From positions 1 to 27,322 of the IMG/VR virus record IMGVR_UViG_3300042549_002188: 27,322 bases of DNA. The stretch is one strand, 5' to 3'. The notes beneath the pieces are model-generated. The model was not told where the DNA came from, made no database searches, and worked only from the letters and a program-made list of their open reading frames with translations. Every line of letters starts with the position of its first letter. Position 1 is the stretch's first letter. The translations under genes and the position numbers were made by a program. This document shows positions 4,844 through 19,843 of the stretch, in pieces. The stretch comes from a virus.

Positions 4844-5862
4844 AGATATTAGTATTAATGGATAACACAAGTGGGGTAAGTTTTCATAGACTATTTACAC
4901 CCTATGCTAAAATGCAGCAAGATTACGACATAGTTGTTGACGTTAGCCAAACCCCTACCGATTGGATAAACATAGACTACACCGAATACGATGCAGTTAT
5001 CTTTAACCGATGGCTTGGAATTTATCAATACAACGTGTTTGAAGCAATATTAAAGGCAAAGTGTAAACTTGTATGTGACATAGATGATTATTGGGTAATA
5101 CCACGTTCAAACCCAGCATTCAAGTTCTACAAGAAAGTCATAAAGAACTGCGTAAAAGATGCAATGTCACTTGCAGATATAGTAACTTGTTCAACCGACC
5201 ACCTTGCAAACAAAGTAAAAGAGTTTAACGAAAATACAATCACGTTTAGAAATGCTTTAGACTTGACTGGTGAGCAATGGAACTTACCAAAACAAAAAGG
5301 TGATAAACTTCGTGTTGGATGGGTAGGTGGTATTTCACATTTAGAAGATTTGAAGTGTGTAGGTGATAGTGTAAAAAGATTCTGTGAAGACTTTGATGCA
5401 GAATTTTATATGTGTGGTTACCATAGTGATTCCGTAGAATGGCATCAATGCGAAAAAGCGATTACGGGTGTAGGTTTAGACAAACGACCTGAATGGTTTA
5501 AAACTGTATTAGGTACACGTGCAGATTTATACGGACAATCATATGCGTTATTTGACTTTTGTATAGCACCATTGCGTGAAGACAATTTCAATCAGTATAA
5601 ATCGGAATTGAAGATTGTAGAAGCAGCAGCATACAAATTGCCTATTATTTGTAGCAATGTCAAACCATATAATTTTCATTGGGGTAACGAAGGCATATTG
5701 CTTTGCCCTAATACTTTCGATGACTGGTATGAGCATTTGAATTATATGAAAGAACATACAGTTGAACGTGGACAATGTAATTTTGAATATTGCAATGAAC
5801 ACCACAACTTAAAAACCATAAACGAGCAGAGATATAAAATGCTCGTAGAACTATGCAAATAA
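4840..5862 (+). CDS. Glycosyltransferase (GT-B, GT4-like)
   Basis: 340 residues from ATG 4840, which overlaps the previous stop. The fold looks like a two-domain GT-B transferase: an N-terminal MKILVLMDN strand, the LVCDIDDYW segment near residues 77-85, a TCSTDHLANKV segment near 125-135, then a second domain opening with KLRVGWVGGISHLEDL, and late conserved residues FCIAPLREDNFNQYKSELKI and EAAAYKLPIIC typical of the donor-nucleotide site of GT4-type enzymes. It would transfer a sugar from a nucleotide sugar. Possible targets are host surface glycan (superinfection exclusion), a virion protein or modified DNA; nothing here selects one. Its position directly before terL, overlapping it by 10 nt, means it is expressed with packaging genes. 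Confidence 0.85.
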   Translation: MKILVLMDNTSGVSFHRLFTPYAKMQQDYDIVVDVSQTPTDWINIDYTEYDAVIFNRWLGIYQYNVFEAILKAKCKLVCDIDDYWVIPRSNPAFKFYKKVIKNCVKDAMSLADIVTCSTDHLANKVKEFNENTITFRNALDLTGEQWNLPKQKGDKLRVGWVGGISHLEDLKCVGDSVKRFCEDFDAEFYMCGYHSDSVEWHQCEKAITGVGLDKRPEWFKTVLGTRADLYGQSYALFDFCIAPLREDNFNQYKSELKIVEAAAYKLPIICSNVKPYNFHWGNEGILLCPNTFDDWYEHLNYMKEHTVERGQCNFEYCNEHHNLKTINEQRYKMLVELCK

Positions 5863-7040
5863 ACTATCAAAGACCATTTTTAACAACTTACCAAGAAGCA
5901 ATATTGGATGCACCTGAACGTTACACAATAACGGCAGCAGCAACAAAGTGTGGCAAAACGGCAAGTCATATTATATGGATTTTTGAACAAGCATTGCAGT
6001 TAAAAGACAATCAATCGGTATGGTGGATTGCACCAGTTTACCAACAAGCTGAAATTGCATTTCGTAGAATGAAATCACAAGTGAGTGCAAAAGACTTCTT
6101 TATTTCAAACGAGAGTAAACTAACTTTGATTTTACCTAATGGTGCAAGAATAGAATTTAAGAGTGCAGAAAAACCCGATAATCTTTATGGTGATGACGTT
6201 TATGCAGCAGTAGTAGATGAAGCATCACGTATGCGTGAAGAAAGTTGGTATGCGCTACGTTCTACACTCACAGCCACCAAAGGCAAGTGCAAACTAATCG
6301 GTAACGTAAAAGGTAAAAAGAATTGGTTCTACAAATTAGGTGAACGGGCAAGACTTGGTGAAGCTGATTACAAGTTTTTCAAGATAACGGCATACGATGC
6401 TGCAAAAGAAGGCATATTAGACATTGAAGAAATAGAACAAGCAAAGAGAGATTTACCCGAATTTGTATTCAAAGAACTTTATTTAGCAGAACCTGGTGAC
6501 GATAATTCAAATCCATTCGGAATAGACAATATTCGTAAATGCTATGCACCAATTTCAAACGGAACACCAATTGCTTTTGGAATAGATTTAGCAAAGTACA
6601 CAGATTGGACTGTCATTACGGGGTTAGATAATCAAAATAGGGTGTGTTATACTGAAAGATTTCAACAAGACTGGCAACAAACAAAAGAACGTATTATAAA
6701 AGTTGTAGGGAGAACCCCCGCATTTGTGGATAGTACTGGAATAGGCGACCCAGTTGTGGAGGACTTACAAAGAATATTACCAAATATAAAAGGTGTAAAA
6801 TTTACATCACAAAGTAAACAACAATTAATTGAAGGATTAGTTATAGAAATACAACAATTTTCAGTTAGATTTATGGAAGAACCATATGGTAATGAATTAG
6901 AAAATTTTGAATACGAATATACAAGAACTGGTGTAAAATATTCTGCACCAAGTGGATTGAATGATGATTGTGTTGTAAGTTTAGCATTAGCAGTTGATTG
7001 TAAAAAAAATAATAGAAAAGGTACATTTGCATTTTCTTAA
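5853..7040 (+). CDS. terL: Terminase large subunit
   Basis: Packaging motor ATPase and nuclease, 395 residues, normal length. Walker A is AAATKCGKT (about residues 28-37), Walker B with catalytic Glu is AAVVDEAS (about 118-125), and a coupling motif follows in KCKLIGNVKGKKNW. The C-terminal RNase H-like nuclease has its acidic residues in FGIDLAKYTDWTVI (about 240), FVDSTGIGDPV (about 290) and GLNDDCVVSLALA (about 367-380). Base composition changes sharply near 6780: the last 260 nt are about 25% GC against roughly 40-48% upstream, matching the adjacent homing endonuclease gene and suggesting replacement of the nuclease-domain end. The product still looks intact. Confidence 0.95.
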   Translation: MQINYQRPFLTTYQEAILDAPERYTITAAATKCGKTASHIIWIFEQALQLKDNQSVWWIAPVYQQAEIAFRRMKSQVSAKDFFISNESKLTLILPNGARIEFKSAEKPDNLYGDDVYAAVVDEASRMREESWYALRSTLTATKGKCKLIGNVKGKKNWFYKLGERARLGEADYKFFKITAYDAAKEGILDIEEIEQAKRDLPEFVFKELYLAEPGDDNSNPFGIDNIRKCYAPISNGTPIAFGIDLAKYTDWTVITGLDNQNRVCYTERFQQDWQQTKERIIKVVGRTPAFVDSTGIGDPVVEDLQRILPNIKGVKFTSQSKQQLIEGLVIEIQQFSVRFMEEPYGNELENFEYEYTRTGVKYSAPSGLNDDCVVSLALAVDCKKNNRKGTFAFS

Positions 7041-7055
7041 TAGATTAGAATAGTG

Positions 7056-7063
7056 TATATTTG
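7056..7063 (+). promoter_or_regulatory. Host-type promoter (TATATTTG) of the HNH gene
   Basis: TATATTTG matches TAnnTTTG and ends 4 nt before the ATG at 7067 (7 nt before the second ATG at 7070), so the mRNA should be leaderless or nearly so. No clear -33 TTG at the usual distance. This would let the homing endonuclease be expressed independently of terL. Confidence 0.55.
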
Positions 7064-7066
7064 TAT

Positions 7067-7555
7067 ATGATGAAAAATATAAAAGATTTTGAAGATTATT
7101 TAGTTGATGAAAATGGTAATATATTTTCAAATAAATATGACAAATTAAAACCTATTAAACAACAATATCATACTAAAGGATATAAAGTTGTAACATTAGT
7201 TCAAGGTAATTTAAAAAAGACTTTAAAGGTTCATAGATTAGTTGCTATTGCATTTATTGAAAATCCATTAAACAAAAAACAAGTCAATCATATTAATGGC
7301 AATAAAGAAGATAATAATATTTTAAATTTAGAATGGGCAACACAATCTGAAAATCAATTACACGCACATAAAATTGGGCTAATGGATAATAAAATAAATT
7401 TAGTAACATTAAGGTCTTCAAAACAAGTATATGACCCAATTACAAATAAATATTTTGTTTCTTTAAAAGATGCTTGTAAAGAAAACAATATTAATTATAA
7501 AAGTGAATTTGCAAGAATAAAATATTATAATACTGGAAGATTTATTTTCTCATAA
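7067..7555 (+). CDS. HNH homing endonuclease (NUMOD4-HNH-NUMOD1)
   Basis: 162-residue free-standing homing endonuclease of the phage HNH type. An N-terminal NUMOD4-like part (FEDYLVDENGNIFSNKYDKL, about residues 7-26) is followed by the HNH core: VHRLVAIAFIENP, then QVNHINGNKEDNNILNLEW and ATQSENQLHAHK (about 65-108). The C-terminal part, KQVYDPITNKYFVSLKDACK, resembles the NUMOD1 DNA-binding repeat. Such enzymes cut related genomes lacking the gene and spread by repair. It has its own TATATTTG promoter, very low GC (about 17-25%), and lies against terL, a favoured insertion neighbourhood. Its stop overlaps the next ATG as TAATG. Starts at 7067 and 7070 are both possible. Confidence 0.88.
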   Translation: MMKNIKDFEDYLVDENGNIFSNKYDKLKPIKQQYHTKGYKVVTLVQGNLKKTLKVHRLVAIAFIENPLNKKQVNHINGNKEDNNILNLEWATQSENQLHAHKIGLMDNKINLVTLRSSKQVYDPITNKYFVSLKDACKENNINYKSEFARIKYYNTGRFIFS

Positions 7556-8112
7556 TGATAACAATACAACAATTACAAGAACTAAAAGAAATCGAGGATT
7601 ATAGTCCTTTGGAAAAAGCCATTCACACTATCTGCATAGTTGACAATAAGATTATTGACGATGTTGAAAATATGACTGTGAAAGATTTGTTTGCACGATT
7701 CAATGAGATAGTCGTAGAAATTACACCACGTGAAAATTTGAAGTTTACATTCAGGTTAAAAGGTAGACGTTTCAAAATGATTCCCAATGCAACCGAAATG
7801 CAAGGTCAACATTTTATTTCTTTGCAGCAATATAGTGGTGATGAGATAGTAAACAACTTACACAAAATTATGGCAATGCTAACTACCGAAGTCAACATAT
7901 TTGGTAAACCTAAAAAAATAAAAGACGTTGCAAAACATTTTGAAGAAGTTAGTGAGTTGTTTTTATCGATGCCATACGACATTGCAAACAGTTACTCGCT
8001 TTTTTTTTCGCAACTTTATCCCAAGTTGTTGGAAACTACACAAGTCTTTTTGACGGAGATGGTGACGGAACTGCAACAAAAGGCAACCCAATACAAAGCT
8101 GGTTTGAAATAG
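7555..8112 (+). CDS. Candidate tail assembly chaperone, zero-frame product
   Basis: 185-residue protein lying between terL/HNH and the tail genes. The first 140 residues are mixed alpha/beta, including ENLKFTFRLKGRRFKMIPNAT and a DVAKHFEEVSELFLSMPYD region, and resemble unnamed structural-module proteins of Bacteroidota siphophages. Near codon 150 the gene crosses a run of nine T; after it the zero frame continues for 34 codons to TAG at 8112. Codons in this zero-frame tail (CCC, ACG, GTG, CTG) are less typical of the genome than those in the -1 frame over the same stretch. By analogy with lambda G/GT, this would be the short form of a chaperone pair for tape-measure assembly. Location and frameshift support that; sequence similarity does not prove it. 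Confidence 0.65.
   Translation: MITIQQLQELKEIEDYSPLEKAIHTICIVDNKIIDDVENMTVKDLFARFNEIVVEITPRENLKFTFRLKGRRFKMIPNATEMQGQHFISLQQYSGDEIVNNLHKIMAMLTTEVNIFGKPKKIKDVAKHFEEVSELFLSMPYDIANSYSLFFSQLYPKLLETTQVFLTEMVTELQQKATQYKAGLK
8001..8007 (+). promoter_or_regulatory. Predicted -1 frameshift slippery site T-TTT-TTT
   Basis: Within T9 at 8000-8008 the zero-frame codons are CTT TTT TTT TCG. The heptamer at 8001-8007 therefore fits X-XXY-YYZ with both tRNAs re-pairing perfectly after a -1 slip. The next codon is then TTC at 8007 and the -1 frame is open to TAG 8286-8288. Transcript slippage on the U9 tract would give a similar result. Confidence 0.65.
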
Positions 8113-8288
8113 TAGATAAGATTTGTAGTGGTAGACGTGAACAATGGGATAGCATTTTAACTATGCAACTAATTGAATTTTTAAACACAGTAAGTTTTTA
8201 CACAACCCAATGGAACAATTTCAACAAAGAAATGAAACGAGTTACCACATTTGAGGGTGCAGTTATGTTGTACTTGTCAAAAATATAG
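8007..8288 (+). CDS. -1 frame extension of the tail chaperone (transframe GT-like part)
   Basis: Open -1 frame of 93 codons that continues the upstream gene after the T9 tract; the fusion would be about 244 residues. It reads FATLSQVVGNYTSLF, then a D-G-D-G-D-G linker, then NPIQSWFEIVDKICSGRREQW, an SILTMQLIEFLNTVSF helix, and ends VTTFEGAVMLYLSKI. Separate proteins with this WF-IV-I-G-W-I-EFLN pattern occur in Bacteroidota phage tail modules. No ATG, GTG or TTG lies near the beginning of this segment; the first internal ATG (about 8163) would lose most of the conserved part. Frameshifting is therefore the best explanation. A homopolymer sequencing error is the main alternative. Confidence 0.65.
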   Translation, partial: FATLSQVVGNYTSLFDGDGDGTATKGNPIQSWFEIVDKICSGRREQWDSILTMQLIEFLNTVSFYTTQWNNFNKEMKRVTTFEGAVMLYLSKI

Positions 8289-8296
8289 TATATTTG
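8268..8296 (+). promoter_or_regulatory. Host-type promoter upstream of a terminator
   Basis: TATATTTG at 8289-8296 matches TAnnTTTG, with TTG at 8268-8270 about 18 nt upstream as a -33 element. It overlaps the stop of the frameshift product. The expected start is near 8301, giving a transcript of only about 60 nt before the intrinsic terminator at 8329-8362 unless there is readthrough. Confidence 0.5.
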
Positions 8297-8328
8297 CATC
8301 GTTCTTTCTTTCATTATCTTGTTAATTG

Positions 8329-8362
8329 CCCCGACACCCTAAACCAAGTGTTGGGGTTTTTT
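8329..8362 (+). terminator. Intrinsic terminator after the chaperone gene
   Basis: CCCCGACAC (8329-8337) pairs with GTGTTGGGG (8348-8356), a 9-bp stem with one G-T pair and a 10-nt loop, followed by six T (8357-8362). It separates the packaging/chaperone transcript from the tail gene transcript that starts behind it. Confidence 0.88.
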
Positions 8363-8370
8363 GTATCAAA

Positions 8371-8398
8371 GCAACAAAAATCACATTTTGCTAATTTA
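8371..8398 (+). promoter_or_regulatory. Putative phage late promoter, copy 1
   Basis: GCAACAAA (8371-8378), 12 nt, CTAATTTA (8391-8398). One of four copies with identical spacing. It lies 8 nt after a terminator and 13 nt (from the C of CTAATTTA) before the GTG start of the first tail gene, so it probably opens the tail transcription unit. Confidence 0.72.
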
Positions 8399-8403
8399 TT
8401 AAT

Positions 8404-9543
8404 GTGAGTATAACAGTCAATCAAAAACCTGATAACAATAGTCCAGCATATAATGACTTGAATTTTGTCATTAGTGAAAGTTCAGGTGCAATTTATGGCA
8501 GCCCAAACTTCAAATACATTTGTGATGTATACAATAACACTACACTTTTAGCACGTTTAAAAGCACCTATTTATCCAAATAGCACAAACAAAGGTGTATT
8601 TAACATTTCAAGACTTATTGAAAACTTTGTCACCTACGATTGGAATATCAACGATGTTTCTGTAAGCGGATGTCCTAATAGTAACTTTTACTATAATGTG
8701 AAATTTGGGTATGAATATTCTACCGGTAGCACATCACCGATGATTACATCTTCCGGTCTAACAAATGTTACCGGTCTAACTGCTTACAATATGGCTTTGC
8801 ACCCTATTGACTTTGCAACCTTTGTAGAAAACGACTACAACGTAAACACGACAAAAAATGCAGAGTTTTTAACTACGATGCGAAATAAGACTATTCATAG
8901 AACACAAAAGGACTGGTTATATTTTTGGAAAGGCAATGCAAGTGCAGTACAAATCAAAACATATCCCGCAGCCACAACACAAAATATAGTGGTCACGGGA
9001 ATATTAGACCAGGTTATTCGCATACCAATTATACCAAGTAGTGGTGCTACATATTTAGAAGTCAAGGCAATTGGTACGGGTTCATCGAGTGAAACTTTTA
9101 CAATTTACATAAAAGACGAATGCAGCAAATATGATACAAATGACATTTATTTCCTCAATAGGTACGGAGCAGTCGAATCATTTCGTTTTGATAGGGTGCG
9201 AAGGGATAAATTTAATGTGGTACGGAAACAGTACAAACAAACACCTTACACTTTGTCGGGTAGTTCGTACACCTACGGAACAGACGCAAAGTCCAAAAGT
9301 AACTACGATACACAAGCAAATCAAATTATAACACTTAATTCAAATTGGATAACTGAAGAAGAAAGCACGTGGTTAAAGGAATTAATTATGTCACCTTATG
9401 TGTGGTTGTTAGATGGTGGAGTATTAAAAAGTGTGAACGTAATTAATAGCGATTACGAAAGCAAAAAGACAATAAACGACAAAGTATTTAATTTGACTAT
9501 TGACGTAGAATTATCATTTACTGATAAGGTACAACGCTTATGA
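8404..9543 (+). CDS. Tail structural protein (Bacteroidota siphophage type)
   Basis: 379-residue, beta-rich protein. It begins SITVNQKPDNNSPAYNDLNF, then has PNFKYICDVYNNTTLLARLK and GVFNISRLIENFVTYDW, a pattern shared by structural proteins that sit next to tail genes in many Bacteroidota phages. A later segment (YFLNRYGAVESFRF) supports the same family. A distal-tail or baseplate role is likely from its place before a large baseplate-like protein and the tape measure. The start is GTG at 8404; the ATG two bases earlier is followed at once by TGA. It follows the late promoter with almost no leader, and ends in ATGA overlap with the next gene. Confidence 0.68.
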   Translation: MSITVNQKPDNNSPAYNDLNFVISESSGAIYGSPNFKYICDVYNNTTLLARLKAPIYPNSTNKGVFNISRLIENFVTYDWNINDVSVSGCPNSNFYYNVKFGYEYSTGSTSPMITSSGLTNVTGLTAYNMALHPIDFATFVENDYNVNTTKNAEFLTTMRNKTIHRTQKDWLYFWKGNASAVQIKTYPAATTQNIVVTGILDQVIRIPIIPSSGATYLEVKAIGTGSSSETFTIYIKDECSKYDTNDIYFLNRYGAVESFRFDRVRRDKFNVVRKQYKQTPYTLSGSSYTYGTDAKSKSNYDTQANQIITLNSNWITEEESTWLKELIMSPYVWLLDGGVLKSVNVINSDYESKKTINDKVFNLTIDVELSFTDKVQRL

Positions 9544-12272
9544 TAAACTTATTTGTAAACACAGTCCTTATGGATTTGTCGGATGACTTCGACTTATTAA
9601 TTACAAGGTCAATTGCTGATATTAAAAACCCCGAACAACGTACAAGTGATTGGAGTAAAACAGTTGTGTTACCAGGTACAAAAGCAAACAATGTTTTGTT
9701 CGGTAATATATTTGAGGTAGATCACACAGTTTTGGGCAACGGACAATTCAGTCCAAACTTTAACCCTAACAAAAAAGCGGATGTACTTGTTTTAGTAGAT
9801 GGATTTGAGCAGTTAAGGGGATTTATACGACTCATTCAAATAAACGTTTTAGACAACGATACTATTGAATATGAATGTTCACTACACGGACAGACTGCTG
9901 ACTTATTTACAACACTTGGAAATGCAAAATTGAGTGAGTTATCGTTTGATGAATACAACCACATTTTAAATTTAGCCAATGTTACCAATTCTTGGGACAC
10001 TTCAATTGTAAAAAACAACACTTCACAAGCATTTGAACTAGGTGAAGGTTATGTTTACGCACAAATGTTGTCAAAGTATGGTAGCCAAAACAATAATACA
10101 AGTCAATGGCGAGTAGATGACCACGTACCAAGTTTATATGCGAAGACTATAATTGACAAAATAATGTCGAATACGGGGTATCAGTACACAAGTGATTCGT
10201 TTTTTAATACTGAAAGGTTTAAAAGATTAGTCATTCCGTATAATAACTTTGGATTTGAAGCAGATGAAACTGCATTAACTACACGTTTATTTCAGGCACA
10301 ATTGAGTAGTCCTATTGCATCACCTAGTGCAAAGTTAATTTTACCTTTTAACAATGATTCTACTGGTGGTAACTTTGACAATGGTACAAATTACAACACT
10401 ACTAATTACGAATACACAGTACCAGTAAGTGGAAACTATGAGTTTTTTCTAAATTTGGATGCAGTATTTACTGTTGCAACACCATTGCCGAATGCTGTAT
10501 TTATACAAGCTATTTTTAATGTGTTAAGAGATGGTGTAAATGTTGCTACAATTGAAATTAATTCCGATTTAAACACAAGTGTTTTTACTTTTAATGCAAT
10601 AGGTAGTGCAAGTATAAATTGTTTAAGTGGTAATAAAATAAAAATACAATATGAAACTTGCTATGTAAATGGAAAATATTCTTTATTTGGTAGATTTCCG
10701 ACAAATTTAACAACAATAAATAGTGGAACATATTTTTATAACCGAGTAGATTCATCAACATTTGCATACAATAATCCAATAGACTTTGGTTTGTTCTTTG
10801 CTGGTGATGACTTGCAAAAAGATATGCTATCAAACTTTGTCAAAATGTTCAACTTGTATATTGAACAAGATATTCTAAACCCTAAACTTTTAAGATTCGT
10901 ACCACGTGATGACTTTTACAATGGCTCAACAAAAGATTGGACAAAGAAACTTGACTACTCGCAAAATGTGACGATAGTTCCAATGGGTAATTTAGAAGCT
11001 AACCCGTACACATTCACATTTAAAGAAGGTCAAGACCAATACAATAAAGATTACAAACAAAGTACTGCAAGAATTTATGGTGATAGGATTGTACGTATTG
11101 ACAATGATTTTGTAAAAGAGGAAAAGAAAATAGAAGTAACTTTTGCACCTACTGTATTGTTTCAGGCAGACGATAGCAAAAGATACTATTCATATATTTT
11201 CAATAGCAATAACGACAAAGGACAATTAAGATGTCTTTATTTTGGTGGTGTAAAAACTACACCTATTTATGAAGTTTTTGAAACTAACCCAACCAACACA
11301 CCAAACTTCACAAAATATCCATTGGTGCTACACATTGACGATGTAGACAATATGCAATTTGACTTAAACTTTGGTATGCCATTAAATGTAATTAGTGGTA
11401 AGGGATTAAGTTACTCAAATCAAAATTTGGTCAATGTATATTGGTACAAAACAATTCGGGAAATTACCGATAAGAATAGTAAAATTTTACAAGCATATTT
11501 TAGGATTACACCATACGACTGGCATAATTTACAATTTAAAGACTTGTATTTTTTTGAAGGTCAATATTGGAGACTTAACAAAATAAGCGACTACAACCCA
11601 TTGCAAGATGGTGTGTATATGTGTGAGTTTCTTTTGGTGACTTATTACCAACCAACAACTGCAACTAAAAAGAATGTGGGTATTGGTAGTGTAGATGTAT
11701 TGAACGACAAATTCCCAAAAGGTATTCCAATTGGATTTACGGGTGTAGGTAGTGGTGGTATAAACATAGGTAATTCACATTTAGATAGTTTAGATACAGT
11801 TGTAATCGGAAACGATAATGTGAGTGGTGCAAGATATTCAACATTAATCGGTGAACGTATAAACATTCCAAGTGGTTTTGAATATGTAACTGCAATCAAT
11901 TGCAATGATTTTACAGCAATAGAAAGCAACAAAGTATACATTGATAATTTCCCACAGATAGGTGCTTATAGTTGTGGTGGTAATGTTATAGAAATCAACA
12001 ATACGAATAGCCCGTATACTTGCGTATATGATGACTATTTAATAGTGGGTACACCATCGAGTGCGGATATATTAGTTGCGTTACCAACACCATCTACTAA
12101 CAAAGGCAAAATATTTGTGGTTAAAAAAATAGGAAACCCACATAAAATAGTTGTAAGTGCTGGTGATGGTTCTATTTTAATAGACGGAGCAACAACACAC
12201 GACATTTCAAACGACAAAGAATCACATCAATTTATTTCCACAGGTACAAAATATTACGTAATAGTTCCATAA
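9540..12272 (+). CDS. Large tail/baseplate protein with jelly-roll insert and beta-roll tail
   Basis: 910-residue tail protein. Residues 1-270 are typical of a Bacteroidota phage tail-associated family (ITRSIADIKNPEQRTSDWSKT, then VLFGNIFEVD). Around 280-412 is a beta-rich block with YTVPVSGNYEFFLNLDA and VLRDGVNVATIEIN, similar in style to C1q/TNF-like jelly rolls; its DNA is markedly AT-rich (about 25% GC). Residues 430-700 return to the core (FVKMFNLYIEQDILNPKLLRF). About 720-790 carries YadA-like repeats (INIGNSHLD, TVVIGNDNV, STLIGERI), and the last 70 residues form a small beta domain. Probably a baseplate or tip protein that helps contact the host; the precise role is inferred. Confidence 0.75.
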   Translation: MINLFVNTVLMDLSDDFDLLITRSIADIKNPEQRTSDWSKTVVLPGTKANNVLFGNIFEVDHTVLGNGQFSPNFNPNKKADVLVLVDGFEQLRGFIRLIQINVLDNDTIEYECSLHGQTADLFTTLGNAKLSELSFDEYNHILNLANVTNSWDTSIVKNNTSQAFELGEGYVYAQMLSKYGSQNNNTSQWRVDDHVPSLYAKTIIDKIMSNTGYQYTSDSFFNTERFKRLVIPYNNFGFEADETALTTRLFQAQLSSPIASPSAKLILPFNNDSTGGNFDNGTNYNTTNYEYTVPVSGNYEFFLNLDAVFTVATPLPNAVFIQAIFNVLRDGVNVATIEINSDLNTSVFTFNAIGSASINCLSGNKIKIQYETCYVNGKYSLFGRFPTNLTTINSGTYFYNRVDSSTFAYNNPIDFGLFFAGDDLQKDMLSNFVKMFNLYIEQDILNPKLLRFVPRDDFYNGSTKDWTKKLDYSQNVTIVPMGNLEANPYTFTFKEGQDQYNKDYKQSTARIYGDRIVRIDNDFVKEEKKIEVTFAPTVLFQADDSKRYYSYIFNSNNDKGQLRCLYFGGVKTTPIYEVFETNPTNTPNFTKYPLVLHIDDVDNMQFDLNFGMPLNVISGKGLSYSNQNLVNVYWYKTIREITDKNSKILQAYFRITPYDWHNLQFKDLYFFEGQYWRLNKISDYNPLQDGVYMCEFLLVTYYQPTTATKKNVGIGSVDVLNDKFPKGIPIGFTGVGSGGINIGNSHLDSLDTVVIGNDNVSGARYSTLIGERINIPSGFEYVTAINCNDFTAIESNKVYIDNFPQIGAYSCGGNVIEINNTNSPYTCVYDDYLIVGTPSSADILVALPTPSTNKGKIFVVKKIGNPHKIVVSAGDGSILIDGATTHDISNDKESHQFISTGTKYYVIVP

Positions 12273-14372
12273 ATGGCAAAATCAACAGCAGCAATAGAAG
12301 TAGAAGTATTACCAAAAGGTAGTTCAGATACAGTAGTAAAGAATTTCAAAACGCAATTACGAGAAGCGAAACTTGAAGCACAGCAAATTGTAATCACGTT
12401 TGGTGAATTTTCCGATGAGGCAATAGCAGCACAAAAAAGAGTTGCAGAATTAGCCGATAAAATGGAAGACTTTAACGACCGAGTTAAAGCATTAAACCCT
12501 GATAAGTTTGCTAAAGTACAAACCATTGTACAAGGTGTATCACGTGGATTCCAGGCAGCACAAGGTGCAATGGCATTGTTTGGTAGTGAGAGTGAAGATT
12601 TGCAAAAGACACTTGTTAAAGTACAAGGCGCAATGGCACTTGCAGATGGTCTTGAAGGATTAGGAAAAATACAACAGCAATTTTTAGCAATTGGTAAATC
12701 AATTGTTGGACCAGTTGTTACAGCTTTTAAAACTTTCAGTACAGCAGCACGTACGGCAATTGCATCTACTGGTATTGGTATTTTGTTAGTTGCATTGGGT
12801 GGTATTGTCGCATATTGGGATGACATCAAAATGGCTTTAACTGGTGTAAATAAAGAAACCGAAAAGTTAAACAAAGCCACAAACGACAATCTAAAAAGTT
12901 CAAAAGAACAAACCGAACAATTCGAAACGCAAGTAAATAGTTTAAAACTACAAGGTAAAACTGAAAAAGAGATTGAACAATTACGCATAAAGGCATACGA
13001 CAATGAAATAACACGTAACATTGAACGATTAGATTTTCTTAAAACCACACAAAAAGCACAAGTTGATGCAGTACAAAGCAATTTTGATTTTGTAAATAAA
13101 GGTTTAAAAATATTTCAAGCACCATTAGTTGGATTGTTAAAAATTATTGATGTTGCACGTAAAGCATTAGGTCAAGAAAGTGATTTAGCAAATCAGGCAA
13201 CAGCAAGTGTAGCATCATTATTATTTGACCCAAAAGCAACAAAGGAAAAAAGTGATGCAGAAATAAAAGCAGTTGACAAAGCAATTAATGAATTAAAATC
13301 TAAACGAGATGCTTCACGTTTAAACTTAAAAAAGATTGACGAAGAAACAACCAAAACGGCTGTCGATAATTCAAACAATCGTAGAAAAGCAGAACAACAA
13401 ATACAAGCACAATTACTAACTGATAACGCAGTTACTTTACAACAAAAACTTGCAGCAGTTAAAGCAACGTTTGAAATTGAAAAAGCAGAATTAATAAAGC
13501 AAGGTGTAAGTAAAAAACTAATTAATGAAAAGTATAATGAGTTAGTTGAAAAAACTACAAAAGACTTTAACGATAAGCAAAAAGCAGATGCAGAAAAACT
13601 TGCAGCCGATACAAAAGCAAATCGTGAAAAGTTTATTGCAGCAGAGTTAAAAGAAGTACAAGATAGGTATCAAAAAGAAATTAATTTTATTAAAGTTCGA
13701 GATGCTGCGTTAAAAGACCAATCAAAAACTAATGAACAAATTGCTAATTTAGAAACAGAAAGTTTGCAAAAACAAATTGATGTTAAAGCAAAATACAAAG
13801 ATGATACAATAACACTTGAAACACAATTAGCAGATAAAAAACGTGAATTACGTGATAAAGATTTAGCCGAAGAAGAAGCAAAAGCAGCAAAAGAAAAAGA
13901 AATACAAACTGCAAAATTCCAAGCAATCAATGATTCATTAAGTGCAATAGGTGATATTTATAGTGCGTTTGCAAGTTCAAGTGAAGAAGACCAAAAGAAA
14001 GCATTTGAAGTAAACAAAGCAGCGCAAATAGCACAAGCAATCGTAAACACTTATCAAGGTGTAACGGCTGCATTGACTTCTGTTCCTTTGTTTCCTGGTC
14101 AACAATTTATAACTGCGGGGTTAGCACTTGCAACTGGTATTGCAGCAGTAAAGAAAATTAGCGATACAAGATTTGAAAGTAAAAGTGTAAACGGCAACGT
14201 TCCAAACCAAACAAGTGGTCAAGGCACTATGCAATCATTTGCGCCACGTCAAAGCAGTTTTAGTATGAATGATAGTCTTACCCAAACACAAAGAGTATAC
14301 GTTACTGAGGGGGATATAACACGTACACAACGTAGGGTAAGCAATAACAAAGCAATAAGTGTAGTCGAATAA
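12273..14372 (+). CDS. Tail tape measure protein
   Basis: 699-residue coiled-coil protein that sets tail length and later helps DNA entry. It is very rich in Lys, Glu, Ala and Gln. Residues 1-110 form an N-terminal coil typical of Bacteroidota tape measures; about 155-185 is hydrophobic (TAIASTGIGILLVALGGIVA); 190-560 is long coiled coil with EQTEQFETQVNSLK-type heptads; 585-645 is a second hydrophobic region with IAQAIVNTYQGVTAAL and ITAGLALATGIAAVKKI, the usual end of this family. At roughly 1.5 angstrom per residue it would fit a tail near 100 nm. It starts right after the preceding stop and is the last gene before the second late promoter. Confidence 0.88.
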   Translation: MAKSTAAIEVEVLPKGSSDTVVKNFKTQLREAKLEAQQIVITFGEFSDEAIAAQKRVAELADKMEDFNDRVKALNPDKFAKVQTIVQGVSRGFQAAQGAMALFGSESEDLQKTLVKVQGAMALADGLEGLGKIQQQFLAIGKSIVGPVVTAFKTFSTAARTAIASTGIGILLVALGGIVAYWDDIKMALTGVNKETEKLNKATNDNLKSSKEQTEQFETQVNSLKLQGKTEKEIEQLRIKAYDNEITRNIERLDFLKTTQKAQVDAVQSNFDFVNKGLKIFQAPLVGLLKIIDVARKALGQESDLANQATASVASLLFDPKATKEKSDAEIKAVDKAINELKSKRDASRLNLKKIDEETTKTAVDNSNNRRKAEQQIQAQLLTDNAVTLQQKLAAVKATFEIEKAELIKQGVSKKLINEKYNELVEKTTKDFNDKQKADAEKLAADTKANREKFIAAELKEVQDRYQKEINFIKVRDAALKDQSKTNEQIANLETESLQKQIDVKAKYKDDTITLETQLADKKRELRDKDLAEEEAKAAKEKEIQTAKFQAINDSLSAIGDIYSAFASSSEEDQKKAFEVNKAAQIAQAIVNTYQGVTAALTSVPLFPGQQFITAGLALATGIAAVKKISDTRFESKSVNGNVPNQTSGQGTMQSFAPRQSSFSMNDSLTQTQRVYVTEGDITRTQRRVSNNKAISVVE

Positions 14373-14373
14373 T

Positions 14374-14401
14374 GCAACAAATTAATAATAATACTAATTT
14401 A
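14374..14401 (+). promoter_or_regulatory. Putative phage late promoter, copy 2
   Basis: GCAACAAA (14374-14381), 12 nt, CTAATTTA (14394-14401), immediately after the tape-measure stop. The start codon of the protease gene lies 14 nt after the C of CTAATTTA. It occupies nearly the whole 35-nt gap. Confidence 0.72.
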
Positions 14402-14407
14402 TAGAAT

Positions 14408-15007
14408 ATGGATTTACCAATATACAAGTTATCAATAGACGAATTTGATTTTGAAAGTGGAATAGATTTCATTTCGCTTGTTGAAAATCCTGCAATCCAA
14501 AAGAATTTCATTGCTTTTAACGACATAAAGACAAAGTTTGCTATTCAAAACGAAGAAAAACGCATCATAACGGGTGCTGCTATGTATGCAGATTTACCTA
14601 TTTATCGCAGAGATGAAGAAAAAGGTGAGTATTATGTAGTATTTGACAAAGAAACTATCTTTAAAATTGCTAAAAAATGGGCTTTAAACAACAAATACAA
14701 TGCTGTAAACGTAGACCATAAAGAGGCAATAGACGGATGCACACTATTTGAAAGTTATTTACTTGACTTTGAACGTGGAATTATGCCACCAAAAGGATTT
14801 GAAGATGCAAAAGATGGTAGTTGGTTTGTATCTTATTTGGTAGAAGAAGACGGAACTTGGGAAAAATGCAAAGATGGTACTTGGAATGGCTTTAGTGTAG
14901 AAGGATTCTTCAATTTCCCTATCAATGCAGAGATACAATTTCTTTCACAATTGAAAGAGATTTTAGAAAATCATTTAAAAAATGCAACAAAAAATACAAA
15001 AAACTAA
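14408..15007 (+). CDS. Prohead protease (XkdF-like)
   Basis: 199-residue protein just upstream of scaffold and capsid genes. The N-terminal part ISLVENPAIQKNFIAF is the hallmark opening of XkdF-type proteins, followed by IITGAAMYADLPIYR, YYVVFDKETIFKIAKK and VNVDHKEAIDG. The His in VDHKE near residue 100 and the Ser in WNGFSVEGFF near 160 are in the positions expected for the phage prohead serine protease fold (EGFF is the ending seen in GxSVxG-type motifs). It would cleave the scaffold and capsid N-terminus during maturation. The last 20 residues are Lys/Asn-rich, and their DNA contains the next late promoter. Confidence 0.78.
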   Translation: MDLPIYKLSIDEFDFESGIDFISLVENPAIQKNFIAFNDIKTKFAIQNEEKRIITGAAMYADLPIYRRDEEKGEYYVVFDKETIFKIAKKWALNNKYNAVNVDHKEAIDGCTLFESYLLDFERGIMPPKGFEDAKDGSWFVSYLVEEDGTWEKCKDGTWNGFSVEGFFNFPINAEIQFLSQLKEILENHLKNATKNTKN

Positions 15008-15011
15008 TTTA
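14984..15011 (+). promoter_or_regulatory. Putative phage late promoter, copy 3
   Basis: GCAACAAA (14984-14991), 12 nt, CTAATTTA (15004-15011). It overlaps the last codons and stop of the protease gene and lies 15 nt before the scaffold ATG at 15019. An extra promoter for scaffold and capsid would explain high expression of these genes. Confidence 0.72.
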
Positions 15012-15018
15012 TATAAAA

Positions 15019-15570
15019 ATGAACACAAAAGATTTAATCAAAGACGTTAGAGAATTGATGTCGAAATTCAATTTCAAAGACGAAGAAGTTAAAATGGAAA
15101 GTGCCGTTTTGACTGATGGCACAGTAATCAAATGGGATGGCTCACTTGCAGTTGGTACTGCTATTTTAGTAGAAACTGCCGAAGGCGATATCCCAGCTCC
15201 TGATTCCACACACGAAATCGAGGGAGGTATGCTTGTTACTACTGTTGGTGGAATTGTTACTGAAATTGTAGAACCAGCAGAATCAGAAGTTGAAATTGAA
15301 ATCGAAGCAAAAGAATTTGCAACCGTTGAGAAGTTTGACGAAGTAGTTGCAAGTTTAGAAGGTAAAATTTCTACTTTAACTGAAGCATTGAACAAAGTAG
15401 TTTCAAGACTTGAAAACCAAAGCGAAGCATTTTCAAAAACTATTGATTTGGTAGAAAGAGTTGCAAACTTACCGAGTGAAGCACCTATGAATGTAGACCA
15501 AACTAAATTGTCTAAAAAAGACCAACAATTCGAGAACATCAAAAAATTTGCACAACAACTAAAAAAATAA
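15019..15570 (+). CDS. Scaffolding-like protein
   Basis: 183-residue acidic protein between protease and major capsid genes, the usual scaffold position. Residues 1-30 are helical; about 30-80 contain repeated short beta motifs (VLTDGTVIKWDGSLAVG, IPAPDSTHEIEGG, LVTTVGGIVTEIVEP) seen in phage scaffold and decoration proteins with L-x-DGT repeats; 100-140 is a coiled coil (FDEVVASLEGKISTLTEAL). It is expected to guide procapsid assembly and be removed by the protease. A head decoration role is the alternative. It has its own late promoter. Confidence 0.72.
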   Translation: MNTKDLIKDVRELMSKFNFKDEEVKMESAVLTDGTVIKWDGSLAVGTAILVETAEGDIPAPDSTHEIEGGMLVTTVGGIVTEIVEPAESEVEIEIEAKEFATVEKFDEVVASLEGKISTLTEALNKVVSRLENQSEAFSKTIDLVERVANLPSEAPMNVDQTKLSKKDQQFENIKKFAQQLKK

Positions 15571-15582
15571 AAAAATAAAATT

Positions 15583-16515
15583 ATGTCATTTAACGTAACT
15601 GGTTTAACTAACTATACCGACGAACAATCTACCGATTTGTTGGTAAAAGCATTATTTAGCGGTAAGACTGCTAAATTATTGTACGATGCTGGTCAAGTAC
15701 AAGTAGGTGTAAAATCTGCTTCTGCTTTGAACATTCTTTCTTCTGATGTTTACTTCCAAACTGATGGATGTGGATATTCTCCAAGTGGTGTAACAAACTT
15801 CACACAACGTGTTATCACAGTAGGTAAAATTAAAGTTGAAGAAACTTTATGCCCTAAAACACTTGAAGCAAAATGGATGCAAACACAAATTGCACCAGGT
15901 TCACCAACACAAGTACCTTTTGAAGTACAAATTGGTTTAGAAAAATCAAAAGTAATCGCTGAAAAATTAGAAATTGCTATGTGGCAAGGAACAACTGCAA
16001 CTGCTAACACTAACCCTAACACCAACAAATTTGATGGTTTGTTAAAGGTTATTACTGATAGTGCTGCATTTGTAAGTGGAAACACTGGTTCTGTAACTGC
16101 AGTAACTTCTACAAACATTGGTACTGTTATCGATGCAATCTACGCTGCTGTACCAGCACGTATTGCAGATAAGGAAAATGTAAAATTGTTTATGGGTATT
16201 GACAACTTCAAATTGGCTTTGTTAAACCTTAAAAATGCTAACTTGTTTAACTACGCATTTGATGCTACTACCGCTTTGAGTTTGGTTTATCCTGGTACTA
16301 ATATGGAAATTATTGGTGTAGGTGGTTTGAACGGAACAAACAAAATGGTTGCTACTAACTTGGATAATATCTTTGTTGGAACTGACCTTGCAAACGAAGA
16401 AGAAGACACCAAATTCTGGTATTCTGAAGACAACGATGAAGTTCGTTTCAGAATGACAATGAAGTATGGTACTCAAATTGCATTCCCTGACCAAGTAGTT
16501 TATTTCACACTTTAA
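15583..16515 (+). CDS. Major capsid protein
   Basis: 310-residue protein following protease and scaffold, consistent with an HK97-type major capsid protein. Features include an N-terminal arm (DEQSTDLLVKALFSGKT), KVEETLCPKTLEAKWMQ, EKSKVIAEKLEIAMWQG, and an A-domain-like end (FWYSEDNDEVRFRM, MKYGTQIAFPDQVVYF). Codon use differs from the neighbours, with many GCT, ACT, GGT and AAC codons, as expected for the most abundant phage protein. The leader is very A-rich (ten or more A in the 20 nt before ATG), a feature of strong translation in Bacteroidota. It has no late promoter copy of its own and is probably transcribed with the scaffold gene. Confidence 0.9.
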   Translation: MSFNVTGLTNYTDEQSTDLLVKALFSGKTAKLLYDAGQVQVGVKSASALNILSSDVYFQTDGCGYSPSGVTNFTQRVITVGKIKVEETLCPKTLEAKWMQTQIAPGSPTQVPFEVQIGLEKSKVIAEKLEIAMWQGTTATANTNPNTNKFDGLLKVITDSAAFVSGNTGSVTAVTSTNIGTVIDAIYAAVPARIADKENVKLFMGIDNFKLALLNLKNANLFNYAFDATTALSLVYPGTNMEIIGVGGLNGTNKMVATNLDNIFVGTDLANEEEDTKFWYSEDNDEVRFRMTMKYGTQIAFPDQVVYFTL

Positions 16516-16527
16516 TTTTATAGATAG

Positions 16528-17034
16528 ATGCCTTGTTTATTAACCCAAAGTATTGCCCTTGACTGCAAAGATGCAGTCGGGGGTATAAAGTCGATTCACT
16601 TGGTGAATTGGGCGAAGACTGGATTCACAGTTGCAAGTGGCGAGGTAACTGCTACAACTATTGTAAGTGGTGACGTTTACACCTACGACATCCCTAAAGC
16701 AACTGGTTCAATGGCAAACACTACAAACGTAAGTGTTGAAAATGGAACTGTGTATAATTCTACTGATGTAGTATTTAGATTGCGTAGAATGTCTACAACC
16801 AAAAGAAACGAAATGAAATTGTTAGCACAAGGTAGAACTTTCTGCATTGTAAAAAACAACAACGATGAGTATTGGTTAGTAGGTCGTGAAAGTGGATGTG
16901 AAGTTTCTGCTATGGTTGCTAACACTGGAACTGCTTTTGGTGATGCAAATGGTTATGAAATTACATTACAAGCTATGGATAGCGAAGCACCTTACAAATT
17001 GAGTGGTGCAGTAGTTACAAGTTTAGGAATTTAA
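16528..17034 (+). CDS. Major tail tube-like structural protein
   Basis: 168-residue protein directly after the capsid gene and the last gene before a terminator. It has an N-terminal L-T-Q-S-I-A-L-D-C-KDAVGG, a middle FRLRRMSTTKRNEMKLLAQ, then TFCIVKNNNDEYWLVG and GTAFGDANGYEITLQAMD. The NEMKLLAQ...WLVG...GTAFGDANGY pattern is one I associate with an abundant structural protein of Bacteroidota phages, probably the tail tube. A head completion protein is the main alternative. Codon use resembles that of the capsid gene, suggesting high expression. Confidence 0.68.
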   Translation: MPCLLTQSIALDCKDAVGGIKSIHLVNWAKTGFTVASGEVTATTIVSGDVYTYDIPKATGSMANTTNVSVENGTVYNSTDVVFRLRRMSTTKRNEMKLLAQGRTFCIVKNNNDEYWLVGRESGCEVSAMVANTGTAFGDANGYEITLQAMDSEAPYKLSGAVVTSLGI

Positions 17035-17060
17035 TTCTTGTTTTTCATATAGTTTAATTG

Positions 17061-17087
17061 GGGTAGCGTAATTGCTACCCTTTTTTT
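17061..17087 (+). terminator. Intrinsic terminator after the capsid unit
   Basis: GGGTAGC (17061-17067) and GCTACCC (17074-17080) form a perfect 7-bp stem with a 6-nt loop, followed by seven T (17081-17087). It closes the protease-scaffold-capsid-tube unit and is followed 4 nt later by late promoter copy 4. Confidence 0.92.
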
Positions 17088-17090
17088 ATT

Positions 17091-17118
17091 GTAACAAATT
17101 TGTAAAAATGCTAATTTA
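17091..17118 (+). promoter_or_regulatory. Putative phage late promoter, copy 4
   Basis: GTAACAAA (17091-17098), 12 nt, CTAATTTA (17111-17118), directly behind an intrinsic terminator. The ATG of the next gene is 14 nt after the C of CTAATTTA. The only difference in the upstream box from the other copies is T for C at the second base. Confidence 0.75.
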
Positions 17119-17124
17119 ATAATA

Positions 17125-17496
17125 ATGCTACTAATAACTAAAGGAGAATCTAAAAATTGGTATTTGACACTTACAGAAAAAGTGACAATTGCAAATCCTA
17201 AATTTCTATTTAGTTTTAAAAATCGTGTTACTGAACTTGAAACAAATGTATTGTTGACCGATATAAGTTCTTTCAAAGACCGATATAATAAATTTGCAGT
17301 AACAGAAGGCAGCACATTTACTTTAGATTGTGGTGAGTATAATTACTTTGTATATGCACAAACTTCAAGTGTTAACACAAATCCTTTATTAGCTGATGAA
17401 TTAGTTGAAGAAGGATTGCTTAAAGTTTTACTTGGTGCTTTAACAACCAAAGAATACGAAGTTGATTTACACGAAAAAATATATGAAATTGATTAA
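17125..17496 (+). CDS. Virion structural protein of Bacteroidota phage type
   Basis: 123-residue protein. It begins LLITKGESKNWYLTLTEKVT, then PKFLFSFKNRVTELETNVLL, and later CGEYNYFVYAQTSS and LVEEGLLKVLL. The pattern of LTLTEK-T...YLF-F...F-V-E...Y-Y-VY-Q...LVE-G-L is frequent next to tail and fibre genes of Bacteroidota phages. It is probably a beta-sandwich structural or tail-associated protein; the exact position in the virion is unknown. First gene behind late promoter copy 4. Confidence 0.65.
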   Translation: MLLITKGESKNWYLTLTEKVTIANPKFLFSFKNRVTELETNVLLTDISSFKDRYNKFAVTEGSTFTLDCGEYNYFVYAQTSSVNTNPLLADELVEEGLLKVLLGALTTKEYEVDLHEKIYEID

Positions 17497-17534
17497 CCTA
17501 ATAAATAATTGTAAAAAAAACTAAATAAAAAAAT

Positions 17535-17804
17535 ATGAGTAACTCAAACGAATTCGCAGCTGGTTTTACTGGTTGCAAAGTAATCAGTAACACGTCTGCA
17601 AATACTGGCAGATATAGAGGTTTTGTAGTTAATAGCGATGCGGTTGTTTCTGCTATATTAGACCAAAATGCTACATCTTTAATGACACAACTTGGTTTAA
17701 CTGGTGTAACTTTAAAGCAAGGTATTTTTATAACTTTGCCACAAGACAAAATTATTTCATCAATTACGCTTACAAGCGGTTCAGTTGTTCTTTACGCCGA
17801 ATAA
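17535..17804 (+). CDS. Small structural protein
   Basis: 89-residue protein, beta-rich and rich in Ser, Thr and Asn (FAAGFTGCKVISNTSANTG, FVVNSDAVVSAILDQN, TLPQDKIISSITLTSGSVV). Proteins of this kind sit between neck or tail proteins and lectin-like fibre proteins in Bacteroidota phages. The A-rich leader before the ATG suggests good translation. It ends at the base before the next start. A decoration or fibre-attachment role is possible but unsupported by motifs. Confidence 0.6.
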   Translation: MSNSNEFAAGFTGCKVISNTSANTGRYRGFVVNSDAVVSAILDQNATSLMTQLGLTGVTLKQGIFITLPQDKIISSITLTSGSVVLYAE

Positions 17805-19157
17805 ATGTTTGTAGGTATAGGTGTAGGAATAGGTAGGCAACGCTTTGCAAGTGGCATCTTTTCGGCATATGCTTCCCGTGTTGCTGCCGATGGTGGAGTA
17901 ACGGAAGCGGGTGCTTGTGTTGATGCGGTTAGTACTTTATTACAAACTGCGTCTTTATTATTAGTACCAAGTGGTTACAAGTCGGGCAAAGCATACTCGC
18001 AAATTCCCACAAACGGGAACGGTGATTTAACTTGGACACGGGCGAGTACGGCAAACCGAACAAATAGTTCGGGGAACATTGAATTGATGGCTACGGGTGT
18101 GCCACGCTTATCCTATATGTACGGCAGTTGCCCAGCGTTGTTGTTAGAACCACAAAGGACTAATTCAATTAGGAATAGCACAATGGTTGGCGCAAGTACA
18201 AGCCCATCTACATTGCCAACAAATTGGGTTAGACAAAATACAAGTGGGTTAACACAATCGGTAGTAGGGCTTGGTACTGAAAATGGAGTTGATTATATTG
18301 ATATAAATTTACAAGGGATTGCAGTTGGGGCGAATGATGCGTATTCTTTTGACCAGACTATTTCTGCAAGTATTGGGCAAAATTGGACAAATTCTTGGTA
18401 TTTTAAATTAATCAGTTCAACCCCAAATGCAGTTAGATTAGCAATTCAAGAATTTAATGGAGCTTCATTTTTAAATGTTGTTACTCAAGACATTACCCCA
18501 ACTACAACTTTAGCAAGATACTCACAAATAAAAACTCTTGTAGGGACGGGTGTTACAAATGTTCGTGCAATGATTTATTTTAACTTTGTTATTGGTCAAA
18601 CTTACAATACTACTATTAGGTTAGCTGCACCACAAATGGAACTTGGTGCATACCCCACAACCTACATACCAACAACAACGGCAACGGTTACCCGAATAGC
18701 GGATTCATTCTCACGCAATAACATCTACACCAATGGTTTGATAACATCAAGTGGGGGTACTTGGTTTGTGGAGTTGAGGAATAACATTGCATATACAAGA
18801 GATACAATAGGTGCTTTGTGGATCGGGGATAATTCAACATCATCAACACTTGGCAATGCATTTAATATTAGAAGTGGTGGAAGTGGTAGATTGCCCATAG
18901 GCAAAACAGTTAGTAGTTCATTTACATCCTTATATACTACATTAACTGATAATGTAAAAATTGCGATTAAATGGGACGGGACAACCGCTGACGTTTTTGT
19001 TAATGGTACAAAAGTAGTTTCTGCTACTGCGTTTACCGCTACTAATATGGAATTTTTATATGGTCAAGGTACTGACGTTCCCAAATTCATCCAAGCAATG
19101 GCACTCTATTCCACACCGCTATCGGACACCGATTGCACAACATTAACAACATTATGA
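17805..19157 (+). CDS. Lectin-like tail fibre / receptor-binding protein candidate
   Basis: 450-residue protein. The N-terminus is Gly/Ala-rich (FVGIGVGIGRQRFASGIF), followed by a linker containing GNGDLTWTRASTANRTNSSG, GVPRLSYMYGSCPALLLEPQ, the conserved joint of phage host-contact proteins. Residues about 146-278 form a beta-rich carbohydrate-binding-like module; a second conserved joint is AYPTTYIPTTTATVTRIADS; the end (FVELRNNI ... VKIAIKWDGTTADVFVNGTK) looks like a concanavalin A/LamG-type fold. The DNA of the 146-278 module is clearly lower in GC (about 32%) than the joints (about 48-50%), suggesting domain exchange. It is the best candidate here for binding a host glycan. It starts right after the previous stop. 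Confidence 0.75.
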   Translation: MFVGIGVGIGRQRFASGIFSAYASRVAADGGVTEAGACVDAVSTLLQTASLLLVPSGYKSGKAYSQIPTNGNGDLTWTRASTANRTNSSGNIELMATGVPRLSYMYGSCPALLLEPQRTNSIRNSTMVGASTSPSTLPTNWVRQNTSGLTQSVVGLGTENGVDYIDINLQGIAVGANDAYSFDQTISASIGQNWTNSWYFKLISSTPNAVRLAIQEFNGASFLNVVTQDITPTTTLARYSQIKTLVGTGVTNVRAMIYFNFVIGQTYNTTIRLAAPQMELGAYPTTYIPTTTATVTRIADSFSRNNIYTNGLITSSGGTWFVELRNNIAYTRDTIGALWIGDNSTSSTLGNAFNIRSGGSGRLPIGKTVSSSFTSLYTTLTDNVKIAIKWDGTTADVFVNGTKVVSATAFTATNMEFLYGQGTDVPKFIQAMALYSTPLSDTDCTTLTTL

Positions 19158-19498
19158 CCTTTTGTAAATACGAATTTTTAAACGCTAAAGATTGGGCAAA
19201 ATACCAATTACAAATCAGAACAATCCAAGAAGGTAGTGTTGTTTACAATAATTGTGCAGTACACGAAATAGGGCAAATCTGTTTAGCCACCGATAAAGAA
19301 GGTAACTGCACTAACTTATCCCCGTTATACGCCATTGACATTCTTTGGAACGATGAGCCATTGAAATCATTTGCAACTAAAGAAGTATTTCCAAATCCAA
19401 TTGGGGTGCATACATTTAGCGGATGCGAAGAAATGTACACACAAAGATTTTGTAATTTTAATCCTGATTCACCTTATTGCACAAATGAAACACTTTAA
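19154..19498 (+). CDS. Hypothetical phage protein near the fibre gene
   Basis: 114 residues from ATG 19154, which overlaps the preceding TGA as ATGA; an in-frame TTG at 19133 is less likely. Contains KYEFLNAKDWAKYQL, a central AVHEIGQICLATDKEGNC, ILWNDEPLKSF and GVHTFSGCEEMYTQRFC. The arrangement (strand, helix, then ...LG...D.EG...Y.VD.LW...GVH.F.G) recurs in small proteins next to fibre genes of Bacteroidota phages, where the function is unknown. Six cysteines are more than in its neighbours. A fibre chaperone is one possibility. Confidence 0.62.
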   Translation: MTFCKYEFLNAKDWAKYQLQIRTIQEGSVVYNNCAVHEIGQICLATDKEGNCTNLSPLYAIDILWNDEPLKSFATKEVFPNPIGVHTFSGCEEMYTQRFCNFNPDSPYCTNETL

Positions 19499-19658
19499 TG
19501 ATACCAATGCAGATGCAGTAATAACGGCAACTTTAATAAGTGCAGTAACCCACTATGCAACATTATTGCAACCTATATTATCATTTTGCGTGGGTGTTAT
19601 GAGTTTAATTTCGGCTGTATTTGCAATTCGTTACTACTATTTAAAAACTAAAAAATGA
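19485..19658 (+). CDS. Small membrane protein, holin-like candidate
   Basis: 57 residues from ATG 19485, overlapping the previous gene by 14 nt. After a polar N-terminus (KHFNDTNADAVITATLIS) there is one long hydrophobic stretch (LLQPILSFCVGVMSLISAVF) and a basic end, YYYLKTKK. One, possibly two, membrane helices and a positively charged tail fit small holins or pinholins. Another membrane protein follows at once, so the pair could be holin and antiholin; this is inferred from shape and position, not homology. Confidence 0.55.
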   Translation: MKHFNDTNADAVITATLISAVTHYATLLQPILSFCVGVMSLISAVFAIRYYYLKTKK

Positions 19659-19843
19659 AACTAAAAGGATATTTTCAACCAACACCAAAAAGATTTAGGG
19701 TACTCGGTGATTCACTTGCCGGTATGTCGTTATTTATTGCAAGTTTAAACGTAGACAATCCAAAGTTTATGTTAATTTGTGGTGTGTGTGGTGCAGTTGG
19801 GAAATTTATAACTAACTTCTTTACCGATGGAAAACAAATTTAA
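19655..19843 (+). CDS. Small membrane protein (holin-associated type)
   Basis: 62 residues: KLKGYFQPTPKRFRVLGDSL, a hydrophobic helix AGMSLFIASL, then PKFMLICGVCGAVGKFITNF. The K-D/G-YF-PTPK-R-GDSL start followed by a G-x-x-GKF-TNFF end is a pattern I know from small membrane proteins in Bacteroidota phages, often listed near lysis or structural genes. Two membrane helices are likely. It overlaps the membrane protein before it by ATGA and the portal gene by 17 nt. Confidence 0.62.
   Translation: MKLKGYFQPTPKRFRVLGDSLAGMSLFIASLNVDNPKFMLICGVCGAVGKFITNFFTDGKQI

Follow-up and report, generated by a model that had tools for sequence, protein, structure and literature searches.

The window, the whole 27,322-nucleotide stretch of viral DNA analysed here, carries at 7555-8288 what comparison with its homologues strongly supports as a single recoded gene with two products, a protein of 185 residues and a fusion of 244 residues. 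From the sequences we lean towards the view that these products are a tail chaperone pair resembling G/GT of phage λ, and that the switch between them is made mainly by slippage of RNA polymerase on a run of nine Ts (T9).

The recoded gene and its two products

The original prediction placed a programmed -1 frameshift at this run, with CTT TTT TTT TCG in frame 0 and the heptamer T_TTT_TTT within it, and the sequence at 7999-8010 confirms both. Frame 0 continues for 34 residues past the tract to a stop at 8110-8112, and the -1 frame stays open through 8285, 93 codons past the junction, to a TAG at 8286-8288. Residues 1-151 are common to both products, so that the fusion has 151 + 93 = 244 residues, and 105 nt are dual-coding; on re-reading the sequence, these counts were right as first given. 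A run of nine Ts is not in itself rare in so AT-rich a window, as a first-order Markov model expects 1.25 per 27 kb. The long open -1 frame is unusual, because in the window's other genes stops make up 11.4% of -1-frame codons and the longest of 396 open runs is 50 codons; from that stop rate, at least 92 open -1 codons would arise by chance with a P of about 1e-5.

Table 1. Features of the recoded gene and its landmarks in the window
Feature	Position	Strand	Remarks
0-frame gene, 185-residue short product (G-like)	7555..8112	+	Open frame; homologues at 268 loci; AlphaFold2 pLDDT 86
T9 run, putative slip site	8000..8008	+	Contains in-frame heptamer T_TTT_TTT (8001-8007)
Dual-coding overlap, frame 0 (34 residues and stop) and frame -1	8008..8112	+	Raised synonymous conservation in both frames
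-1 extension, 93 codons and stop; T-like domain, helical	8007..8288	+	Own start codon absent upstream of or at the tract
Terminase large subunit	5853..7040	+	Upstream landmark, adjoining the pair in relatives
Tape measure gene	12273..14372	+	PHROG tape measure matches; two genes downstream of the pair; same order in loci L281 and L282

Is this arrangement preserved among relatives? Neither the 0-frame protein nor the extension had a tblastn match among GenBank phages, and a first scan of genome contigs with the 0-frame alignment also gave none; the route through the terminase found more there. Scanning viral contigs brought up 24 close relatives, 61-88% identical; the 23 with the whole gene have T9 at the same codon and both frames intact, and the truncated one, L024, has the same T9. 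The full homologue set was built with the neighbouring terminase gene as a handle and one HMM for each part of the gene. It holds the 0-frame gene at 268 loci, 243 of which also carry the extension, and the 25 loci without it all end at a contig edge. Wherever both parts are present the extension lies in frame -1 (243 of 243). Some loci are overlapping pieces of one contig, and the distinct sequences number 138. An alignment of homologues had been proposed as the check on the prediction, and in it the T run is a conserved junction with the extension always in -1. The prediction had staked itself on read data showing neither eight nor ten Ts and on there being no independent start for the downstream frame in homologues; the close relatives all carry exactly nine Ts, and no conserved start exists.

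Synonymous codon identity, computed over 18 representatives below 90% identity, bears on whether both frames are used. In frame 0 it climbs from 0.47 ahead of the tract to 0.71 within the overlap; in frame -1 it falls from 0.64 within the overlap to 0.45 downstream. Synonymous change is thus suppressed only where the frames overlap, which argues that both frames are translated into selected protein. Since the extension has this dual-coding signature and no conserved start of its own, it would be reached through the 0-frame gene. On this comparative evidence the frame transition is programmed and not an error.

One might still suppose that there are two separate genes, or that the T run hides a sequencing or assembly error. 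Homopolymers are error-prone, some homologues have a -1-frame start codon 9-19 codons before the tract, and a separate small gene is annotated there in the Nonlabens phage P12024S. These starts, however, are not conserved. We sought a start position common to all 125 distinct complete sequences and found none, and 68 of the 125, the window included, have no -1-frame start codon at all upstream of the tract, in keeping with the prediction that the frame lacks a usable start of its own. A separate gene was rejected on that ground, and sequencing error because the same T9 recurs across numerous separate assemblies as well as isolate genomes; selection on both frames within the overlap weighs against either. 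We regard this alternative as practically refuted and exceedingly improbable.

The nine-T run: RNA polymerase or ribosome?

In the window's group the tract takes three forms. It reads (C/G)TT TTT TTT followed by TCG, TCT or TTG, that is T9 or T10, in 116 of the 138 distinct sequences, TCT TTT TTC TTG in 19 and GTT TTT TCT TTG in 3. The last two types make up one clade of 22 distinct sequences (support 100/98), nested among T9 sequences, and in this T6 clade both frames are retained in the absence of nine Ts. After clustering at 75% identity, nine or ten Ts are found in 39 of 41 clusters, the other two being one clade with six; the cluster filter demanded T9 for loci like that of P12024S, and when the dropped loci were rechecked by HMM those that held the region had T9 or T10. 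Nine further homologues from bacterial genomes all have T9. Among intact homologues, therefore, nine or ten Ts are present in all but one clade, down to about 20% identity. We left L385 (T7) and L382 (T9) out of the counts because their 0 frame is broken upstream; L383 has no clear tract, and in L108 (T8) the tract is at a contig end.

The Ts do not always sit on the codons in the same way. Most tracts have the register NTT TTT TTT TNN; loci L375, L377, L380 and L381 have NNT TTT TTT TTG, and the L328 clade, L355 and L384 have TTT TTT TTT GNN. Each of the three registers totals nine Ts, and the fourth codon of the tract specifies S, L, Y, W, C, F, V or A. No intact complete homologue has a run of seven or eight Ts, whereas such runs are common at heptamers in other genes. 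Of in-frame NNT_TTT_TTY sites, 155 of 168 lie within runs of at least nine in the recoded gene, as against 2 of 65 in other genes of the same loci, a comparison whose Fisher value is overstated because the lineages are related.

What carries out the frame change? A ribosomal heptamer, T_TTT_TTT or T_TTT_TTC, requires seven or six Ts. Since nine are kept in three registers while a heptamer needs at most seven, slippage is favoured over the ribosome; that the junction keeps nine Ts in whichever codon register they lie points to RNA polymerase. In bacteria, nine is the run length for efficient slippage by RNA polymerase (PMC5009743), and the published test for purposeful transcriptional slippage is that homologues conserve the length of a 9-T run (PMC1088944). 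The window has a run of at least nine A/T residues in the coding strand, and its length is conserved among homologues. In the mechanism that we propose, RNA polymerase would add one U on the nine-T run, and the U10 mRNA, CUU UUU UUU UUC GCA, would give exactly the -1 product. Slippage would also give a U8 mRNA and from it a short +1 product, in the window ...LFFRNFIPSCWKLHKSF, which a ribosomal frameshift would not; the fusion peptide would be identical under either mechanism. Transcriptional slippage on U9, named in the original prediction as the alternative mechanism, is thus the one that we favour, as nine or more Ts are kept in all intact lineages but one clade; judged from the sequences, it is somewhat more likely than not to be the switch.

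The frameshift at T_TTT_TTT that the prediction had put first retains its in-frame heptamer and is possible, but the comparative data favour polymerase slippage. One may imagine that the same gene pair relies in every lineage on classical ribosomal -1 frameshifting at U_UUU_UUU, the nine Ts being a by-product of the heptamer and its flanking codons. Each T9 tract does also hold a perfect heptamer; a site of the form X_XXY_YYZ is in frame as T_TTT_TTT in the window and all T9 tracts and as T_TTT_TTC in the T6 clade, and three sequences are the only exceptions. In the commonest register the flanking Ts are partly explained by hydrophobic residues at codon 1 of frame 0 and codon 4 of frame -1. 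Downstream stimulatory structures are not required by every ribosomal -1 site. The T6 clade has the heptamer U_UUU_UUC, at which a shift has been proposed for the SPP1 tail chaperone (PMC6316719); λ is known to use ribosomal frameshifting (PMC5009743), and in E. coli UUY codons are prone to shifting (PMC4066793). Set against this are the retention of nine Ts across three registers and the absence, in intact complete homologues, of the T7 and T8 runs that would suffice for a heptamer. We looked for a conserved downstream RNA structure as a stimulator and found no shared helix and modest z-scores across homologues. Moreover, the three GTT TTT TCT TTG sequences keep both frames with no heptamer. 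We consider a purely ribosomal switch in all lineages rather unlikely, though a serious rival.

Slippage by polymerase as the main agent leaves room for ribosomes. In the window's phage, ribosomal slippage on U_UUU_UUU may be a rival or a helper. Because both frames are kept there with U_UUU_UUC, ribosomes can serve in the T6 clade, and this derived clade has probably moved to ribosomal frameshifting. The GTT TTT TCT TTG sequences (L153, L155 and L158) have neither nine Ts nor a perfect in-frame heptamer, yet both frames are conserved; they do not suit either mechanism well.

Productive transcriptional slippage is known from Thermus dnaX, from Shigella mxiE and spa13 and from IS elements (PMC1088944, PMC5009743). 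These systems share with the window a conserved run of nine A/T within a gene and a second product made through the run; here we infer slippage from sequences. In the open-access journal papers searched, we found no description of a nine-T run or of transcriptional slippage for a phage tail chaperone.

Identity of the pair and its neighbourhood

By arrangement and neighbourhood the pair very probably encodes tail assembly chaperones. As in G/GT, one gene gives a short 0-frame product and a longer frame-shifted one (comparative evidence from 243 loci), and the sizes in homologues, mostly 177-187 residues for the short product and about 240 for the long, fit G/GT chaperones. No sequence match to a known chaperone was found in Pfam, PHROGs or the PDB, and Foldseek gave no match below E 0.5 against the PDB. 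The predicted structure of the 0-frame product (AlphaFold2, pLDDT 86) matches many uncharacterised viral proteins, and the HK97 chaperone 2ob9 matches weakly (Z 2.4 over 58 residues); the model of the extension is helical and of low confidence (pLDDT 67). Thus the earlier description of a tail chaperone-like fusion stands on architecture and neighbourhood, but not on sequence similarity or a convincing fold match. With no sequence match to known chaperone families and a weak structural one to HK97, we limit the claim to function by analogy with λ gpG/gpGT and claim no membership by homology. If the analogy holds, the short form would act on the tape measure protein and the rarer long form would bring in tail tube subunits.

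The pair lies upstream of the tape measure gene, as had been noted by comparison with λ, but does not adjoin it, as genes 8404-9543 and 9540-12272 intervene. The order terminase, pair, two genes, tape measure is found in the window, L281 and L282; in Mucilaginibacter the tape measure gene comes first and the pair follows a few genes later. Could the products of the same recoded gene be something else, such as a structural component of head or tail together with a minor, extended version? Frameshift-extended structural proteins exist, as with gp17.1 and gp17.1* of SPP1 (PMC6316719), and the distance from the tape measure gene and the want of a sequence match would suit such a role. Nevertheless, the extension is typical in place and size, the tape measure gene lies close to the pair in each of the differing gene orders of the window, P12024S and Mucilaginibacter, and the HK97 tail chaperone ranks second, though weakly, in a structural re-comparison. 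We think a role other than chaperone quite improbable.

Comparison of the candidate chaperone pair with known ones is instructive. The λ G/GT pair, made by ribosomal -1 frameshift (PMC5009743), is likewise encoded by one gene close to that for the tape measure and comprises a short protein and its -1-extended fusion. It has no detectable sequence similarity to the window's pair, its heptamer is mixed where the window has a homopolymer T9, the window has two genes before the tape measure gene, and the recoding machine is probably different. The SPP1 pair gp17.5/gp17.5*, with a proposed -1 shift at UUUUUUC (PMC6316719), is a tail chaperone pair of similar size whose heptamer is that of the T6 clade; there is no sequence match, and the window and nearly all its relatives have T9 rather than T6C.

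Several features of the surroundings deserve mention. Between terminase and pair, at 7061-7555, is an HNH homing endonuclease-like gene. A similar gene is present in L089, L092, L096, L098 and L099 and absent in L281 and L282, and it thus behaves like a mobile insertion. Within 8286-8404, just past the -1 stop, TATATTTGC resembles the Bacteroidetes promoter element TAnnTTTG; a GC hairpin with a T6 tail follows some 40 nt on, ahead of the next gene (GTG 8404). The two are possibly a promoter with an attenuator or terminator, and the arrangement is also found in L024. The gene order over 5853-21710 is unusual: terminase, a tail module with the tape measure gene, a likely capsid gene (15583-16515), a tube-like gene (16528-17034) and large late genes.

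Distant relatives and two proposed recoding machines

How far does the nine-T arrangement extend? In the cultured Nonlabens phage P12024S, gene 38 matches the fold of the 0-frame product (Foldseek E 1.2e-6) at 18% identity. Like the window's gene it follows the terminase gene and has T9, and its -1 frame runs into annotated gene 39, which is the end of the -1 extension. The annotation (JQ823122) treats genes 38 and 39 as separate and hypothetical, but most likely they form a single recoded gene with T9. The locus, L284 3137-3831, corresponds to JQ823122 23136-23830, and the same arrangement is found in P12024L. A scan with the P12024S terminase yielded 80 loci, with T9 or T10 wherever the region is included. 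A search of bacterial genomes, which brought in Bacteroidota prophages, found a homologue in Mucilaginibacter pedocola (ATT TTT TTT TGC, T9), another in a Bacteroidetes MAG (T9) and seven more intact ones at about 20% identity, all T9. Flavobacterium phage 6H was considered as a relative on a weak fold match; its gene ends TGT TTT TTC TAT and was not used, as its -1 frame stops at once. The +1 frame of that gene (L285 10352-10927, - strand) remains open, which may reflect a different kind of recoding.

Among ribosomal recoding events, the tail chaperone frameshift is a textbook case. We give about an even chance to the broader proposal that phages and prophages of Bacteroidota have long made their tail chaperone pair by transcriptional slippage, at an invariant run of nine Ts, in place of a ribosomal frameshift like that of λ, and that one clade later swapped to ribosomal U_UUU_UUC. 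Such a swap, if true, would resemble the difference between Thermus and E. coli for dnaX. Genes recoded in this way get annotated as two unrelated hypothetical proteins, as with genes 38 and 39 of P12024S. This large, mostly uncultured group of Bacteroidota phages would then offer a simple case, open to test, in which two recoding machines serve the same function.
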